NCBI GenBank assembly: GCA_900498135.1 | Contig: LR026961.1 | Coordinates: 659,547 to 702,046 of the forward strand | Reading direction: 5' to 3' | Source: an uncultured Desulfatiglans sp. | GTDB lineage: Bacteria; Desulfobacterota; DSM-4660; Desulfatiglandales; Desulfatiglandaceae | DNA length: 42,500 nucleotides | Shown here: piece after piece, positions 12,546 through 20,048 of the stretch | Layout of the letters: each line of letters begins with the position of its first letter | Numbering within the stretch: position 1 is the first letter of the stretch | Notes under the pieces: model-generated | What the model was told of the DNA's origin: nothing | Database searches by the model: none | Seen by the model: the letters and a program-made list of their open reading frames with translations, nothing else | Program-made: the position numbers and the translations under genes

Positions 12546-13085
12546 TTACCTGGCAATCAGGCCGCTCACCTCGAGCCGCCGGACGACAGCCGGAACCATG
12601 GCAGCCCCGAGGGCCCCGAAAAGCATGCTGAACGATGCACTCAGAAGCGCGTGCTGAAGGACGACGGTCTTGTCCATGCCCATCAACCCATCCACCAGGG
12701 CAACGGTTCCAAAGCGCGTTGCGGAGGCGAGGGCACCTGTCACCACCGACCAGAGAAGGCTCGAGAACAGTGCGGGGTGGAAGGCAGCCGCCAGATCCAC
12801 CACCAACCCCGGCAGGGCGAATTTCAGGATCATCAGCGGACCGCCCTTCCCCATTCCCAGGAGCATGCACACGAAGCCCGCCACCAAACCCACCAGGGTC
12901 GCCGCTCCGAACCTCGCCACACAGCCGCGACCCAGCATGATGAAGAAGATCGTGAAAAACATCGCGTGGCCCGGGATATTCAAATGCAGGCGCAGCGCTG
13001 CGCGCGCGATGACGACGAATGTTGCGCAGAAGGCGATGCAGAGCCCCTCCTGCAGCGTAAAACGTTGGCCCGTGCTGGAGTTCAC
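12546..13085 (-). CDS. ECF-transporter S-component-like membrane protein
   Basis: 179 residues, GTG start overlapping the preceding stop (GTGA). About five to six hydrophobic helices (for example LCIAFCATFVVIARAAL, MFFTIFFIMLG, TLVGLVAGFVCMLLGMG, LVVDLAAAF, SFSMLFGALGAAMVPAV). The size, helix number and position downstream of ecfA-ecfT fit an ECF S component, the substrate-capturing subunit. The substrate-specific family (thiamine, biotin, cobalt, HMP and so on) is not recognisable to me. It could also be a membrane protein of another kind. Last gene of the operon. Confidence 0.65.
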   Translation of the reverse strand: MNSSTGQRFTLQEGLCIAFCATFVVIARAALRLHLNIPGHAMFFTIFFIMLGRGCVARFGAATLVGLVAGFVCMLLGMGKGGPLMILKFALPGLVVDLAAAFHPALFSSLLWSVVTGALASATRFGTVALVDGLMGMDKTVVLQHALLSASFSMLFGALGAAMVPAVVRRLEVSGLIAR

Positions 13086-13807
13086 GCTCGTCCTCCCTTC
13101 TTCTTCTTGCCGGTCACGGTCCAGGCTCCGTTCACCGCCTCGACCCGCAAAACGGGCTTGCCTTCTTTCAGCTCCGGTCTAAGCCACCCCTGGGAATCCA
13201 CCATTTCACCGGCATGAAGGCGAAGCCCCGTTCCGTCCTCGACCGCCTGGATCCCCGTTTTCTCCAAGATTTCGCCTACACTCACCCGGCCGTCGAGGTC
13301 CCGTATCCCCTGGAGCGAAATGAACCGGCCGTCGCGGCCGGTGCTGCGCAACCCAACCCCCGACAACGCACCGATGCACCCTTGTCCTGTCTCCCCCAGC
13401 CACCAGACCCACACGCCGAGTCTTGCCGCCAGGGCCCGAGCCTCCGCAATGGTGAGGACCTCCCGCTGCGCCCTGAAGCCCAGGTTCTGCAATTCATCCG
13501 GCACGGTGGAACGGTAAGCCACGCACAGCCCCGGATTCGCACCCTCGTGAAAGTGGTCTATCAAGAACGCTTTGGCCGTCTCCGCCGCCTCCAGCATCAC
13601 GTCTCCCTCGACGTCCATCTCGATGCAGGCGCTGCTGTTGTGGGAGGTGTAAGGGATATCCGGGTGTACCAGCAGTTGATGACGCGTCACGGTCGTCTGC
13701 GCAGAAAACCCCTCTTCCCGCAGCGACACAGCCAGCATCCGCGACAGACGCCCGGTGCCGATGCTTTCTTCGTTGTCCGTGTCATCGATAGCGATCAAAA
13801 GCTTCAT
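13082..13807 (-). CDS. TiaS kinase-domain-like (IDDTD) protein
   Basis: 241 residues. The start is the ATG at 13807, which overlaps the ecfT stop (ATGA). The N-terminus MKLLIAIDDTDNEESIGTGR contains the IDDTD signature of the TCKD kinase domain of archaeal tRNA(Ile2) agmatidine synthase TiaS. The rest also fits that domain: HPDIPYTSHNSSACIEM (compare TiaS 'P.IP.kt.gN.A') and TGQGCIGALSGVG. TiaS's later OB-fold and zinc-ribbon domains are absent; the last 75 residues are small and basic (GKKKKGGRA). By family knowledge the domain phosphorylates with ATP. Here, between ECF transporter genes, it may phosphorylate the imported compound or a nucleoside-like cofactor precursor. That is inference. 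Confidence 0.7.
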   Translation of the reverse strand: MKLLIAIDDTDNEESIGTGRLSRMLAVSLREEGFSAQTTVTRHQLLVHPDIPYTSHNSSACIEMDVEGDVMLEAAETAKAFLIDHFHEGANPGLCVAYRSTVPDELQNLGFRAQREVLTIAEARALAARLGVWVWWLGETGQGCIGALSGVGLRSTGRDGRFISLQGIRDLDGRVSVGEILEKTGIQAVEDGTGLRLHAGEMVDSQGWLRPELKEGKPVLRVEAVNGAWTVTGKKKKGGRA

Positions 13808-14550
13808 TCCGATTTTCCTTCCATAGGTTGTCCGACAAAATCCTCCGGCGGGACGGCGCATGTTCGATCCCCCGGTCTTGGCTCCCGCACCCCGTAGCCT
13901 CTGGCCTCCGCCGCCAGCGCCGCCTCGTCCGCCGTCCGGATGACGCGGACCATCAAAGGCACCATAATGCTGGAAAACACCTCTTTCCAATGACGCGGAT
14001 CCGCAAAACCCCTCAAGCTCAGCGGGACACCCCGCAGCCTTTGCACCTGAACGATTTCCCGCGCCTCCTGCGCCAGGTAGGGCACGAAACGGAGGCTGAC
14101 CAGGGTCAGGAAGGCGAAGCGCGCCGGCAGCCATTTCTTGAAGACCCTCAGCATCTCCGAGGTCCGCGTCGTGCGCAGCAGAATCGCTCCGGGCATGAAA
14201 AAGAGGACGACCTTCGCCCCGGCCAGAACGCCCGGATACCATCCCGCTTCCCACCCGAAGCGCAGGAGATAGAGGAGGACGACGATGACGGTCTGATACA
14301 GGAAAAAACGGCTGTCCACCCACCAGTCCCGCAGCCTGAGTCCGCAGCCTGCCATATAGAGCACATTCAGCCCGATCAGCGCAAAAAGCGCAGGGAAACG
14401 GGTCACCGTCACGGCGGCGAACCCCATGACGAAGGTGAGCAGGAGTTTCCAGCCGGCCCCCAGACGATGCACAGGGGATTCGCCCGCTCGATACTCATAG
14501 GCCGCCCCGGCTGAATAGGTTGGCCCGGTCTTACGCCGGCGAGGTCTCAA
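13804..14550 (-). CDS. ecfT: ECF transporter transmembrane coupling protein EcfT
   Basis: 248 residues. TTG start with a perfect AAAGGAGG 5 bases upstream, lying inside the end of ecfA (20-base overlap). It has an N-terminal block of hydrophobic helices (WKLLLTFVMGFAAVTV, LFALIGLNVLYMAG, LYQTVIVVLLYLL, GAKVVLFFMPGAILL) and then the long amphipathic coupling helices. The C-terminal ARG-type coupling motif is visible in AAEARGYGVRE, with a related QRLRGVP segment before it. EcfT links ATP hydrolysis by the EcfA pair to the S component. Cell location: inner membrane. Confidence 0.85.
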   Translation of the reverse strand: MRPRRRKTGPTYSAGAAYEYRAGESPVHRLGAGWKLLLTFVMGFAAVTVTRFPALFALIGLNVLYMAGCGLRLRDWWVDSRFFLYQTVIVVLLYLLRFGWEAGWYPGVLAGAKVVLFFMPGAILLRTTRTSEMLRVFKKWLPARFAFLTLVSLRFVPYLAQEAREIVQVQRLRGVPLSLRGFADPRHWKEVFSSIMVPLMVRVIRTADEAALAAEARGYGVREPRPGDRTCAVPPEDFVGQPMEGKSE

Positions 14551-15916
14551 GCCGTCCTCCTTTCATCTCCAACCGCCATTCAGCCCAGTCCACCGCGGGC
14601 AGGTCGTCATGGGATGCGATCAGCACAGCCGTCTGCCAGCGATTCCGGTAATCCGTCAGGGTGTTCAGTAGCCGGCGCCGCTCCCTGAAATCGATCCCGG
14701 CAAACGGCTCATCCAGAAGCAGCAGAGACGGGTGCATCGCCATGACGGAGGCCAAGGCTACGCGGTGCTGCTCACCCAGGCTCAGACCCAGCGGGGGGCG
14801 ATCCAGCAGATGCGTCACACCGCAAAGCGCCGCCGATTCCATGACACGCGCCGCCGCCTCCTTCTCGGGCAGTTTCATGCGCAGCAAGGAGAATCCGATT
14901 TCCTTTTGCACATTCTCTTCGAAGAGCTGTTTTTCAGGGTTCTGAAGAAGCAGAGCGATTTTCCCAAGGAGTCGGTCCGAGCGATGATCCCCTACCCCTC
15001 GAACCTGGACCGTACCGGCGTCGGGCCTCCTGAGACCGGCTATGCAGCGCAGGAGCGTCGATTTACCGGCGCCGTTTTCACCATACAGATGGACCCGTTC
15101 TCCCGCTCGGATCTCCAAATCCAGTCCACGAAAGACCGGCCCTGCAGGGCCATCGACCTGGAGTCCCTTCAAGGAAAGAAGAGGATGACCCTCGTCTACC
15201 AGCCTGGGCGGGTTCTCCCGCCCGCCCGCCGCAGGGCGACCGCCGGCTCTTTGCGGTTCGAAGCAATCCCCGACGCAGATGATACGGCCTTCCTCCATCT
15301 GCAGGAACCGGTCTGCCAGTTCCACGAAGGGCTCCAGGTCGTGCTCGGCGACGAGCAGCGTTACCCCCCGAGCCTTGAGCCTGCGAAGGATCTGAAGGAG
15401 TCTGGCTTTGCCCCTCCGGTCGAGTTGAGCCGTCGGTTCATCCAGAAAGAGTGCACGCGGCCCGGCCGCCAACGCGGAAGCCATGCCGAGCCGCTGTTTT
15501 TCGCCGGCGGAAAGCTCGCTGACATTGCGCTTCTCGAAACCTTGGAGACCCACGTCATCGAGGGCCTCCCCGACCCGCAAGGCGACCTCGCCGGGCGGAT
15601 ATCCCCTGTTCTGCGGGCCAAAAGCGACATCATCCTCCACCGGCGTCAGCAACACCTGGGATTCGATGTTCTGGAAGACCAGCCCGATATCCGATTCCGG
15701 CCCCGGGCAAACCCGAACCAGAGCACCCTCCTGACGGCCCCTCTTCAGAAGCCCGCGCAGCGCAAGCAGCAGGGTCGTCTTCCCACAGCCCGACGGACCG
15801 CCGACGCACACACACTCTCCAGTGTGCAGTCTGAGCGCAATATCCCGGAGCGCTGGTGCGCGAGCCCCCGGATAGGTATAGGAGAAATCCCTGACGGAAA
15901 GGAACGTTGCCCTCAA
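14531..15916 (-). CDS. ecfA: Fused double ECF ATPase (EcfA1-EcfA2 in one chain)
   Basis: 461 residues with two complete ABC ATPase domains. Domain 1 (about 5-225) has Walker A GPSGCGKTT, Q-loop FQNIESQ, signature LSAGEKQRLG and Walker B ALFLDEPTAQLD. Domain 2 (about 245-455) has Walker A GENGAGKST, LLQNPEKQLFEE, signature LSLGEQHRVA and LLLLDEPFAGID. The Q-loop 'QNPE.QLF.E' form is characteristic of energy-coupling-factor ATPases. TTG start, with AAGGA just upstream, 12 bases after the TonB receptor gene's stop. It drives EcfT. The fusion makes the pair stoichiometric. Confidence 0.88.
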   Translation of the reverse strand: MRATFLSVRDFSYTYPGARAPALRDIALRLHTGECVCVGGPSGCGKTTLLLALRGLLKRGRQEGALVRVCPGPESDIGLVFQNIESQVLLTPVEDDVAFGPQNRGYPPGEVALRVGEALDDVGLQGFEKRNVSELSAGEKQRLGMASALAAGPRALFLDEPTAQLDRRGKARLLQILRRLKARGVTLLVAEHDLEPFVELADRFLQMEEGRIICVGDCFEPQRAGGRPAAGGRENPPRLVDEGHPLLSLKGLQVDGPAGPVFRGLDLEIRAGERVHLYGENGAGKSTLLRCIAGLRRPDAGTVQVRGVGDHRSDRLLGKIALLLQNPEKQLFEENVQKEIGFSLLRMKLPEKEAAARVMESAALCGVTHLLDRPPLGLSLGEQHRVALASVMAMHPSLLLLDEPFAGIDFRERRRLLNTLTDYRNRWQTAVLIASHDDLPAVDWAEWRLEMKGGRLETSPA

Positions 15917-15928
15917 AATGTCCTTCGC

Positions 15929-17941
15929 CTAGAACCGGAGCTCCGCCCCGGCGTAAAGCATTCGCCCGCTCTGCGGATATCCGTAGGACTCCTCGTAGTC
16001 GACGTCGAACAGGTTTTCAGCCCGCACGTAGAGCCTTAGGAAATCATTGAAGAGTTTCTGCTCGAGCTTTACGTTGAACAGGACGTAGTCCTCGAGCTCT
16101 CCCTCGACGAGCGGGGCCTTCTTGGAATAATAGACCTGGTTCGCGATGTAGAGCATGTTGGCATAGGCCGTAAAGCCCGCTGGAAACGTGTATTGGCCTT
16201 CCAAAGTCAGCTTGTGCTTGGGGCGGTACTGCAGTTCGTCCTTTTCCGTTCCGGCGGACCGGTCCTCCGCGTGAAGAAAGGTGTAGCCGGCCCGCACCAA
16301 AGCATTGTCGACCATTGCGGATTCCAGCATCAGTTCGAAACCCTGGAAGCGGTATTCATCGTTGTTTTCGAAGCGGTCGTCCGGTAGGATCTTTTCGATG
16401 TAATCCTTTACGTCCATGAGAAACGCCGTGGCCGTGAATCTGCTCTTCGCGGGCAGTTCGCGCTCGAGGCCGAGTTCATAGTTGAGGGAGTTTTCCGTTG
16501 TGAGGTCCGGGTTCCCCCCTGCCTCCTCATAGAGCTGACGAATCGATGGAAACCGGATCTTGCGCGCGACCGACCCCCTGAGGCGCGTTTCGGGGTTCAG
16601 ATCATAGTAGGCGCCGAACAGGAAGTTCCCTGCATCGTCGTTGGAGCCGTCCGGGTTGTTCATCCAGTTGTACCCTCCCCCAAGCACGATCCCGAGATCG
16701 TCCAAGGGGTTCACCTCATATTCGAGCGAGACGTTGTAGACATTGAGATCCCGGTCATCGGAGTAGTCCCGGAATTCATAGACATTCTTCTTCACTTCCA
16801 CGTCCCGGATCCGTCCATTCGCTTCCCAGGCCTCCTGACGCACGTTCAGACCGAAGGTCGCCTTTCCCCTTTCCGCCAGGTCATAGGCCGTCTGGAGCGC
16901 GGCCCCCGATATGGTCGTCGTGTTGTCCTCGTGAAAGGTGCCCTTGATACTCGGGTCGCTCATCGAATTGTAGGCGTTATCGTCATAACGGCTGCGCTCC
17001 TCGTCCTGCTGGTTGACGAACACCCAGCCGCGCATGCTGAGGGGCCCATCGAAATCATAACTGCTCGAAAGTTGAGCCGAAATCCCGTCGAAGTCTTCGA
17101 CGCGCTCGTATTTCGGGCTGTTGGCGAAAACGTCTTTCTTATCGTTGATGGTGCTTGGAGGCAGCCCGAACTCCCCGTTTTTGTAATCGACCACGAAACC
17201 GACATGAAGGCGGTCATTGGGCTTGTAGGATAGGTTTCCGAAGAGATTGCGCCTCTCGCTGTCGCTGTTTTCCCTGAGCCCCCCGTCTTCCTCGGACGTG
17301 GGCTTGAAGTCGTCCGACAGCCGATAACCATCGCTGTCATAGACGCTCCCGCTGCCAAAGAAGGTCAAGGCGTCCTTGCCGCCCGAGAGGGTGAAGCGGC
17401 CCAGGTTCTGGGAGCCGCTTCCGGCTTCGCCGGCAACCGATCCTTTTACCTTTTGGCCTCCCTGCTTGGTGATGATATTGATCACGCCGGCCAGTCCGCC
17501 GTCCCCATAGAGGACCGAATGGGTCCCGTAAGACAGTTTGATCCGGGAGATGTTTTCGACCGGTATCACAGATGGATCGAACTGCCCGTCAAACGTCGAA
17601 TTGAGTGGGATCCCATCCAGAAGGAGAACGACATGGCGGGAACGCAAACCCCTGAGATCCACCCTTGGAGTCCCTTCCGCACCGCTCCGTATCACCACGC
17701 CGGGAAGGAGCTGAAGCGCCTCTGAAAGCGTCCTCACACCCCGGGTTTCGATCTCACTGGCGCCGACCTCGCGAACGGTGCCCACGGCCTCCACGACATC
17801 CTGCTCTCCGGTCACGATAATCTCGCCCAATGTGTACGCCGGCTCACCGGCCGCATCCGCCGAAGATTCAGCGCAAACCCCGCTCCCGTCCCAACATGCC
17901 AGGCAACAGGCGAGCGCCATGATCATCAACCCTTTTCCCAT
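15929..17941 (-). CDS. TonB-dependent outer-membrane receptor (BtuB/CirA-like)
   Basis: 670 residues. The start at 17941 (MGKGLMIMALACCLACW) has GGGAGG 9 bases upstream and gives a proper signal peptide; the open frame continues 75 codons upstream without meaning. A TonB-box-like EIIVTGEQ follows the signal peptide. The plug domain has LSEALQLLPGVVIRS, RVDLRGLRSRHVVLLLDGIP and GDGGLAGVINIITKQGG. A roughly 22-strand barrel follows, ending with an aromatic-rich YAGAELRF. It imports a scarce ligand across the outer membrane using TonB/ExbBD (not in the window). Being first in an operon with an ECF importer suggests both carry the same vitamin- or metal-type substrate. Confidence 0.88.
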   Translation of the reverse strand: MGKGLMIMALACCLACWDGSGVCAESSADAAGEPAYTLGEIIVTGEQDVVEAVGTVREVGASEIETRGVRTLSEALQLLPGVVIRSGAEGTPRVDLRGLRSRHVVLLLDGIPLNSTFDGQFDPSVIPVENISRIKLSYGTHSVLYGDGGLAGVINIITKQGGQKVKGSVAGEAGSGSQNLGRFTLSGGKDALTFFGSGSVYDSDGYRLSDDFKPTSEEDGGLRENSDSERRNLFGNLSYKPNDRLHVGFVVDYKNGEFGLPPSTINDKKDVFANSPKYERVEDFDGISAQLSSSYDFDGPLSMRGWVFVNQQDEERSRYDDNAYNSMSDPSIKGTFHEDNTTTISGAALQTAYDLAERGKATFGLNVRQEAWEANGRIRDVEVKKNVYEFRDYSDDRDLNVYNVSLEYEVNPLDDLGIVLGGGYNWMNNPDGSNDDAGNFLFGAYYDLNPETRLRGSVARKIRFPSIRQLYEEAGGNPDLTTENSLNYELGLERELPAKSRFTATAFLMDVKDYIEKILPDDRFENNDEYRFQGFELMLESAMVDNALVRAGYTFLHAEDRSAGTEKDELQYRPKHKLTLEGQYTFPAGFTAYANMLYIANQVYYSKKAPLVEGELEDYVLFNVKLEQKLFNDFLRLYVRAENLFDVDYEESYGYPQSGRMLYAGAELRF

Positions 17942-18114: not shown

Positions 18115-18167
18115 GACATGAAATGTCATGGACAGGGACCTGTCCTTTTTGGAGTGGATGATTCATC
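18115..18167. promoter_or_regulatory. Cluster of palindromes upstream of the TonB-ECF operon
   Basis: Three inverted repeats lie within about 50 bases: GACAT-GAA-ATGTC (18115-18127), GGACAGG-GA-CCTGTCC (18130-18145, with T5 after it on the plus strand) and GATGA-T-TCATC (near 18157-18167). They lie about 175-225 bases upstream of the receptor start and look like operators. A terminator role on the plus strand is unlikely because no plus-strand gene precedes it. The rest of 17,942-18,488 shows no gene and no riboswitch core that I recognise. Confidence 0.35.
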
Positions 18168-18488
18168 TTAAAGGCTGGCGCGGCTTTATGTCAATCAGGA
18201 TATAAATTTGCTTTTTCAGGACGTCACAAGACCCAGGGGTGATTCGATCCGGTTGACGTCCATCGACCTCAAAACACCCATTCGCAGTTGTGCTCGAATA
18301 TACGACAGGCGAGCCCGCAGCGTCACCCGAACCTTTTCCCCTGCGTCCCGAACCCGCAAAGGCCCGGGGTGATAAGATTACGCTTGTGTCTTGCGGACTT
18401 TTTTGACAGTCTCTGAGGCAGTCCGAAGGGCCGTCCACGCGGAGACCGGGCATCCATCAACGATCAACCCAACAGGAACGGGGGCACC

Positions 18489-20048
18489 ATGTTTACACCT
18501 CAGCCAAACGACCTGTGGATCAGGCGCATCTCCCTCAACCTCCATCCACCCAGCCTCGAAGACAACACGGCGGACGTCGACCGGCTCGTCAAGGCCCTGC
18601 GCAGGGAGCTCGGGAGCTCGAAGGTCGTGGCGGCCTTCACCCTGGCCAACGGACTCCCGAAGCGCCTGAGGGACGCGCGCTATCAGGTGGACGCCCTCGT
18701 CTATGAAGATCAGGACGTCTGGACGGTCTTCGACGCCCTCCCCCGGACGGACGGCGCCGCCGGCATTTACGGACTCGCCCTGGACCTCGGCAGTTCCACG
18801 ATGGTGCTCCGTCTGGTGGACCTCGCCACCGGCCGGATCGCGGCCGAGCGCAGTTTCAACAACCCGCAGATCGAAATCGGGCCGGACATCCTGACGCGCA
18901 TCCATTACGCGGGGCAAAACCAGGGGTTGTCCCGTCTGCAGCGGCTCGTGATCGACCGCCTGAACCTGGAGATCGCCGCGGCCGCGGCCGAGAACGGCCT
19001 TTCGCCCGGACAGCTGGCCGGCCTGTCGGTCGCCGGCAACACGGTCATGACCCACCTCTTCCTGGGGCTCGACCCCTACTGGATCTGCCGGGAACCGTAT
19101 ATCCCGGTGATGAACACCCCCCCGATCACCGCCGCGGGCAGCCTCGGGATCGCCATCCATCCCTCGGCACCCGTCTTCGTCTTCCCGAACGTCGGGAGCT
19201 ATTTCGGCGGGGACCTGATTGCGGGGATCATCGCCTCCGGGATGACCGAAAGGGACGAAACGGCCTTTCTGGTCGATGTCGGGACCAACGCCGAGGTCGT
19301 GGTCGGCAATCGGGACTGGCTGATGGCCTGCGCCGGGGCGGCCGGCCCTGCCCTGGAGGGCGGCGTAGCCAGCATGGGCATGATGGCGGCCCCGGGGGTC
19401 ATCGACAAGGTCGTGATCGACCCGGAATCCCGTGAGATCCGGATCCACACGATCGGAGAGCTTCCGCCGATCGGGATCTGCGGCTCCGGCCTCATCGACC
19501 TCGCTGCCCAGCTTTTCCTGGCCGGCATGATCGACCTCCGGGGAAAGTTCGTCCGGGAGGCCTGCGGTGGACGGATGATCGAACTGGACGGGATCCGCCA
19601 CCTGACGGTGGTGGAAGCGGAGGCATCCGGAACCGGCGAACCGCTCTACCTGAGCCAGCCCGACATCGACGCGCTCATCCGATCCAAGGCAGCCATGTAC
19701 ACCATCCTCACCACCATCGGAAACACGGTCGGGATCCCCCTGCACGCCATCGAGCGTTTCTATGTCGCCGGGACCTTCGGTTCCTACATCGACCCCCGGT
19801 CGGCGATCACCGTCGGCATGATCCCGGACCTCCCGCTCGAGACCTATGTCTCCCTCGGCAACACCTCGCTCGAAGGGGCCACCCGTGCGCTCCTTTCGGC
19901 GGCCGTGCGCCGGGAAAGCCAGGCCATCCGAGACCGGATCACCTACCTCGAATTGAACGTCAACCAGGAGTTCATGAATCTCTTCAGCGCGGCCAAATTC
20001 ATCCCGCACACCGACCGGTCCCTTTTCCCGTCGGTCGCGGGGGCATAG
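18489..20048 (+). CDS. RACo-like ASKHA protein (DUF4445) without ferredoxin domain
   Basis: 519 residues. The body matches reductive activators of corrinoid proteins (RACo/RamA-type, DUF4445): linker HPPSLEDNTADVDRLVKALR (about 18-38), ASKHA phosphate-1 motif YGLALDLGSSTMVLRLVDL (about 94-112), GGDLIAGIIASGM, the LVDVGTNAEVVVG...AGAAGPALEGG block and the final VAGTFGSYIDP. Classical members carry an N-terminal 2Fe-2S domain before the linker. Here the protein starts only about 17 residues before it. An in-frame TGA at 18414 and the absence of a C-x5-C-x2-C pattern in any upstream frame show the domain is missing. It would bind ATP and act on a corrinoid or similar protein; electron supply must come from elsewhere. 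No corrinoid methyltransferase is nearby. Confidence 0.8.
   Translation: MFTPQPNDLWIRRISLNLHPPSLEDNTADVDRLVKALRRELGSSKVVAAFTLANGLPKRLRDARYQVDALVYEDQDVWTVFDALPRTDGAAGIYGLALDLGSSTMVLRLVDLATGRIAAERSFNNPQIEIGPDILTRIHYAGQNQGLSRLQRLVIDRLNLEIAAAAAENGLSPGQLAGLSVAGNTVMTHLFLGLDPYWICREPYIPVMNTPPITAAGSLGIAIHPSAPVFVFPNVGSYFGGDLIAGIIASGMTERDETAFLVDVGTNAEVVVGNRDWLMACAGAAGPALEGGVASMGMMAAPGVIDKVVIDPESREIRIHTIGELPPIGICGSGLIDLAAQLFLAGMIDLRGKFVREACGGRMIELDGIRHLTVVEAEASGTGEPLYLSQPDIDALIRSKAAMYTILTTIGNTVGIPLHAIERFYVAGTFGSYIDPRSAITVGMIPDLPLETYVSLGNTSLEGATRALLSAAVRRESQAIRDRITYLELNVNQEFMNLFSAAKFIPHTDRSLFPSVAGA

Follow-up and report, generated by a model that had tools for sequence, protein, structure and literature searches.

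Molybdate and tungstate are imported through ModABC, TupABC, WtpABC and MolBC-A, and we know of no ECF transporter for either metal, nor of any S component that carries an oxyanion. A survey of almost 5900 organisms counted three types of prokaryotic tungsten/molybdenum importer, listed 278 molybdenum-using bacteria without any of the three types and proposed further uptake systems (PMC6147048). Our search of the literature found no ECF transporter for tungstate or molybdate; a study of the TaoR regulon (10.1111/1462-2920.14500) may mention some of the genes discussed here, and cobalt CbiMNQO is the subject of a trace-metal paper on Geotalea. Here, we analysed a stretch of 42,500 nucleotides from an uncultured Desulfatiglans sp. 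(the window), which contains a five-gene operon encoding a TonB-dependent receptor, the ECF subunits EcfA and EcfT, an S component and a stand-alone relative of the TCKD kinase-like domain of TiaS (hereafter TCKD). An initial annotation had suggested vitamins and nucleosides as candidates for testing, while allowing that the substrate may be new; the gene neighbourhoods point to tungstate or molybdate instead, and the five genes look like a previously undescribed tungsten/molybdenum import system.

The operon occupies window positions 12546–17941 on the minus strand, and its genes, their strand and coordinates, the 12-nt gap between the receptor and EcfA, the 20-nt overlap of EcfA with EcfT, and the ATGA and GTGA overlaps at the EcfT/TCKD and TCKD/S junctions were all found as initially annotated. 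The 670-aa start of the receptor is preceded by GGGAGG and was preferred because it opens on a signal-peptide-like N-terminus, a 745-aa start, also listed, being unlikely from the sequence. The closest solved structures of the receptor were CirA and BtuB, and the comparison with solved structures gave no match specific to one substrate. The Walker A, Walker B and signature motifs were intact in both halves of EcfA, which together with EcfT marks the operon as encoding an ECF transporter. A scan of the window yielded no Rfam riboswitch match at the gathering threshold, and riboswitch control of the operon was set aside after a relaxed threshold gave a chance match only. Divergent from the receptor gene, at 18489–20048, lies a RACo-type corrinoid activation gene with linker, middle and C-terminal domains.

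Table 1 Features of the operon in the window
Feature	Position	Strand	Basis
TonB-dependent outer-membrane receptor, 670 aa	15929..17941	-	Plug and TonB barrel domains
EcfA, fused double ECF ATPase	14531..15916	-	Two ABC_tran domains; intact motifs
EcfT transmembrane coupling subunit, CbiQ family	13804..14550	-	PF02361, E 3.2e-14
Stand-alone TiaS-TCKD-like protein, 241 aa	13082..13807	-	NCBIfam, alignment, AF2 model
ECF S component, 179 aa, 6 TM	12546..13085	-	AF2 model, Foldseek, conservation
Candidate sigma-70 promoter of the operon, TTGACA-18-TAAGAT	18165..18194	-	Consensus scan only

The S protein matched no NCBIfam model and scored 18.2 bits against PF09819 (YkoE family), below the Pfam gathering threshold of 25.2, with 5 of 30 members of the S family matching PF09819 at E 0.01 or better. 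The structure prediction suggested in the initial annotation (AlphaFold2, pLDDT 92.7) returned a six-helix ECF S component fold, the leading Foldseek matches being the S components YkoE, ThiT and RibU with probability 1.00. By sequence, the protein stands outside the named families, as the initial annotation had held in finding no vitamin family for it. Across 41 sequences of the S family, the PG[HR] motif carried H or R in 39, and D97 was near-invariant (40/41).

The profile search suggested for the 241-aa protein fell short in Pfam, where TiaS_TCKD scored 18.7 bits, under the cut-off, and in NCBIfam it matched TiaS with E 1.8e-12, at a score of 46.5 that is far below the equivalog cut-off of 600. 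Methanogenesis marker 11 (NCBIfam, TIGR03280) was matched with E 3.3e-11, its 42.9 bits lying far below the cut-off of 255.8; for the bacterial TCKD family as a whole, the fit to marker 11 is roughly as good as that to TiaS. The AF2 model of the protein (pLDDT 92) aligned to TiaS structures with Z 20–21 over ~148 residues and an rmsd of 2.0, separated by a clear gap from all non-TiaS folds (Z <8), and kinship with HPPK or PII, at Z about 6.3–6.8, was at background level and set aside as evidence. The proposed kinship with TiaS was thus corroborated by profile, alignment and model. The similarity is confined to residues 1–156 of 241, the C-terminal 80 residues being barely covered by structure matches; the TCKD kinase-like domain was found, and the FLD, OB-fold and zinc-ribbon RNA-binding domains were not, in keeping with the earlier claim that the latter are missing.

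A HMMER alignment placed DDTD (8–11), T18, R42, N57, P92-G93 and G143-x-IGA in common with TiaS, and T18 corresponds to the TiaS residue reported as autophosphorylated. DDTD, GTG with T18, R42, TSHNS..C, PGxC and GxIG were invariant within the TCKD family, and the invariant residues of the bacterial family's own include H56, S58, C61 and C95. The initial annotation had named a lack of ATP-binding residues as an outcome that would count against it; the TiaS-aligned positions, Thr18 included, are invariant, so such a loss seems not to have occurred.

Of 99 near relatives, 12 carried a TCKD relative, as did 31 of the 394 phylum genomes. Among named genomes, at least 584 stretches held one, and the best 80 of these came from Deltaproteobacteria, Clostridia, Bacillales, Chloroflexi, Bacteroidales, Myxococcota, Acidobacteria and others. 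Syntrophomonas-type genomes carry three TCKD-like genes in tandem (L123:6181-8452, L147:9998-12313), the middle copy of which has lost DDTD and reads DDSL. At L071:9626-10376 (genome G340), the TCKD frame is broken into two overlapping pieces and one match contains an in-frame TGA; the gene may be decaying.

TonB receptor, EcfA, EcfT, S component and TCKD occurred together in 17 of the loci collected, all 17 having been found through TCKD searches. Because the loci had been collected in this way, a reverse search was started from the S family, which matched 12 of the 394 phylum genomes; TCKD was present in 10 of these 12 versus 21 of the 382 S-negative genomes (p=1e-10), and the two S-positive genomes without TCKD had weak S matches. 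The neighbourhood survey proposed in the initial annotation, which would have given up its reading had no linkage appeared in other genomes, thus recovered a conserved gene set. Full operons did not share a single type of TCKD, their TCKD genes being split in a tree among separate, well-supported clades. The window S component clustered with those of G021, G010, G012 and G030, of its own taxonomic family (support 94), and the window receptor formed a supported clade with the receptors of the same four genomes and three others; the TCKD genes of these relatives belong to a deep clade other than that of the window TCKD. A TCKD gene thus seems to have been retained in the operon through a change of TCKD type, and this retention suggests functional coupling.

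According to Pfam and to matches among solved structures, the neighbours of TCKD genes include TupA, WtpA, MolB/MolA-like transporters, MoSto, ModE with TOBE domains, TaoR-like regulators, MoeA, MoaA, tungsten aldehyde oxidoreductase (aldehyde:ferredoxin oxidoreductase, AOR) and ThiF. A MoSto homologue (2ogx, E 3e-63) and a tungstate-binding TupA (3lr1, E 3e-91) were among these neighbours, as were HTH_17 and PBP domain regulators of the type of TaoR, which is described in PMC11980592. In loci without an ECF module, TCKD follows a permease closest to HI1471 (MolB) of H. influenzae (E 8e-68), and HI1472 (MolA) is among the close solved relatives of the accompanying MolA-like binding protein. 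HI1470–1472 are reportedly molybdate/tungstate transport proteins. Other neighbours were a protein of ~70 residues with the motif SCYNCRYRRW...C and no Pfam match, which was noted at L079:10751-10963, L112:10705-10980 and 17 other loci and adjoins TCKD in 18 of 70 mapped named loci, secreted Oxidored_molyb-like (PF00174) proteins at L101:5783-7255 and L048:6271-7305, and a FetB-like permease, read by eye, just upstream of the MolBA-like/TCKD genes at L052:5754-6548 and L053:5551.

A set of tungsten/molybdenum markers chosen after the relatives had been seen (MoSto, TaoR-like, TupA, WtpA, ModE and MoeA) was represented at 37 of the 80 named loci and in 18 of the 35 relatives, versus 3 of 40 control regions, the controls being random regions from TCKD-bearing genomes of one phylum and the named loci spanning more phyla. 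The named set, sharing few genomes with the relatives, is a partial and largely independent replication. MoSto, TupA and WtpA were found in none of the 40 control regions, and full operons carried markers in 7 of 17 cases (p=0.005 versus the 3/40 controls). AOR-family genes were present in all 31 TCKD-positive phylum genomes versus 268 of 363 others (p=2.5e-4, ignoring kinship).

Three loci bring these genes together most clearly. In the first, 20 kb of a Geobacter MAG (L112) hold AOR-ThiF-TCKD-TonB-EcfA-EcfT-S with MoaA, TupA and MoeA. Genes were called simply as longest ORFs, a procedure that misses some, EcfT and S of this locus among them. L057 carries, in a row, MoeA-TupCBA-porin (O/P-type)-TonB protein-TCKD-S-EcfT-EcfA-receptor-ModE, with a Moco riboswitch nearby at 19372-19490, and in L134 a TupA-like protein (3lr1, E 4e-21) lies between the TonB receptor and EcfA, with MoSto after TCKD. 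Conserved linkage with tungsten/molybdenum genes was found at the level of the family rather than in the window itself, and at that level the association of TCKD with these metals is well supported. Across many bacterial phyla, the stand-alone TiaS relative appears to belong to tungsten/molybdenum handling and not to tRNA.

In the window, about 10 kb around the operon are free of the markers, so the substrate of the operon is read from its relatives. Elsewhere, the same genome encodes TupA, ModA and WtpA homologues; the window system is therefore an additional route, and a fourth importer for the free oxyanion is not needed. A role as sole importer was ruled out: each of the 12 TonB-ECF genomes tested carries a homologue of ModA, TupA or WtpA, or of more than one of them. 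An additional route fits the TonB receptor, which would be required if the metal came in a bulky form or was extremely scarce.

Uptake through a receptor, an S component and EcfA-EcfT is established biology of these families. We consider the operon probably to be a tungsten/molybdenum acquisition system with TCKD as an ATP-using accessory enzyme. Tungstate or molybdate would be collected by the TonB receptor, probably in a complex that is too big for porins or too scarce for them to supply. The S component would bind the oxyanion at the inner membrane, EcfA-EcfT would power uptake, and TCKD would use ATP to handle the metal after entry, most likely in a phospho- or nucleotidyl-transfer by which the metal is trapped or its cofactor activated. 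We infer the substrate in this organism, its chelated form and the catalytic role of TCKD. TCKD accompanies four importer types (ECF/S, MolBA-like, Tup and Wtp) and is also found with genes for storage, for the cofactor and for regulation, so its probable target is the metal, or the cofactor of the metal, once import is complete. The positions conserved with TiaS speak for an ATP-dependent transfer more than for a role in regulation alone. The same range of partners weakens the earlier idea of metabolic trapping by phosphorylation, and TCKD looks to have a general role in tungsten/molybdenum handling, not one that depends on a single organic compound being imported.

Several other readings were weighed against this one. 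The substrate might be organic and serve tungsten or molybdenum metabolism, for instance as a precursor of a pterin or as a chelator of the metal, with TCKD phosphorylating it on entry; this would carry the earlier idea of metabolic trapping over to these metals. Such a substrate would be in line with the organic vitamins bound by the nearest solved S relatives (the closest being YkoE, for HMP/thiamine), with a TonB receptor suited to a large ligand, with the known oxyanion importers already in the genome and with the secreted Oxidored_molyb-like proteins near some TCKD genes; we regard this as unlikely, as simple oxyanion importers (Tup, Wtp and MolBA-like) and the inorganic store MoSto are common neighbours of TCKD too. 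About equally improbable, and compatible with tungsten/molybdenum uptake, is that TCKD is not an enzyme and gates the transporter as an ATP-binding sensor like PII. Its fold is ferredoxin-like, PII/GlnK are among its weak matches (Foldseek E about 0.01; Z 6.3), and a gene for transport or storage often accompanies it, but the PII matches are at background against the Z of 21 for TiaS, and the invariant set, which includes the TiaS-aligned Thr18 and DDTD, suggests catalysis.

Import of a corrinoid or another vitamin, with the tungsten/molybdenum neighbours of the relatives being coincidental to the window's own lineage, would account for the resemblance of the receptor to BtuB and CirA, the weak YkoE similarity of the S component and the divergent RACo-type gene. 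We hold it to be very unlikely, given that a cobalamin riboswitch was not found in the window, that the window receptor, EcfA and S component have homologues in tungsten/molybdenum-linked loci, and that tungsten/molybdenum neighbours recur in separate TCKD clades. That TCKD modifies tRNA as TiaS does is scarcely credible despite its kinase-like domain and the conserved positions common to both, as the other TiaS domains are absent, TCKD sits in transporter operons of bacteria, and the anticodon in question is served in bacteria by TilS and lysidine.

Returning to tungsten/molybdenum acquisition, it is quite possible, if somewhat short of likely, that these genes represent a new type of prokaryotic importer, built from an ECF module that has its own S component and, in many cases, a TonB receptor, and with it a new family of TiaS-TCKD-related enzymes that take part in activating tungsten/molybdenum or in assembling the cofactor in many bacterial phyla and, by kinship, possibly in the form of methanogenesis marker 11. 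If so, the TonB-ECF route would, to our knowledge, be the first case of ECF transport of group-6 metals. The TCKD family is a concrete candidate for an unknown ATP-dependent step of tungsten or molybdenum use in many anaerobes. It also gives a lead on methanogenesis marker 11, which could itself be a tungsten/molybdenum protein.

Compared with described ECF transporters (YkoE, ThiT and RibU; CbiMNQO and NikMNQO), the window system has EcfA, EcfT and the S fold in common, but the sequence of its S component lies outside the named families, and the present family goes with tungstate/molybdate genes and is coupled to a TonB receptor and TCKD. With TiaS, the archaeal tRNA-Ile2 agmatidine synthetase, the window protein shares the TCKD fold and DDTD, T18, R42, N57, PG and GxIGA; unlike TiaS, it has 241 rather than about 420 residues, lacks the FLD, OB and zinc-ribbon domains, belongs to a family with its own TSHNS..C and PGxC signature, and is set in tungsten/molybdenum operons rather than in tRNA modification. 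The C-terminal half of methanogenesis marker 11 matches 20 of 25 members of the bacterial TCKD family (best E 1.6e-17), whereas its extra N-terminal half is absent from the window protein. ModABC, TupABC, WtpABC and MolBC-A, of which Tup, Wtp and MolBA-like genes neighbour TCKD, are classical ABC importers that work with periplasmic binding proteins and without an S component.
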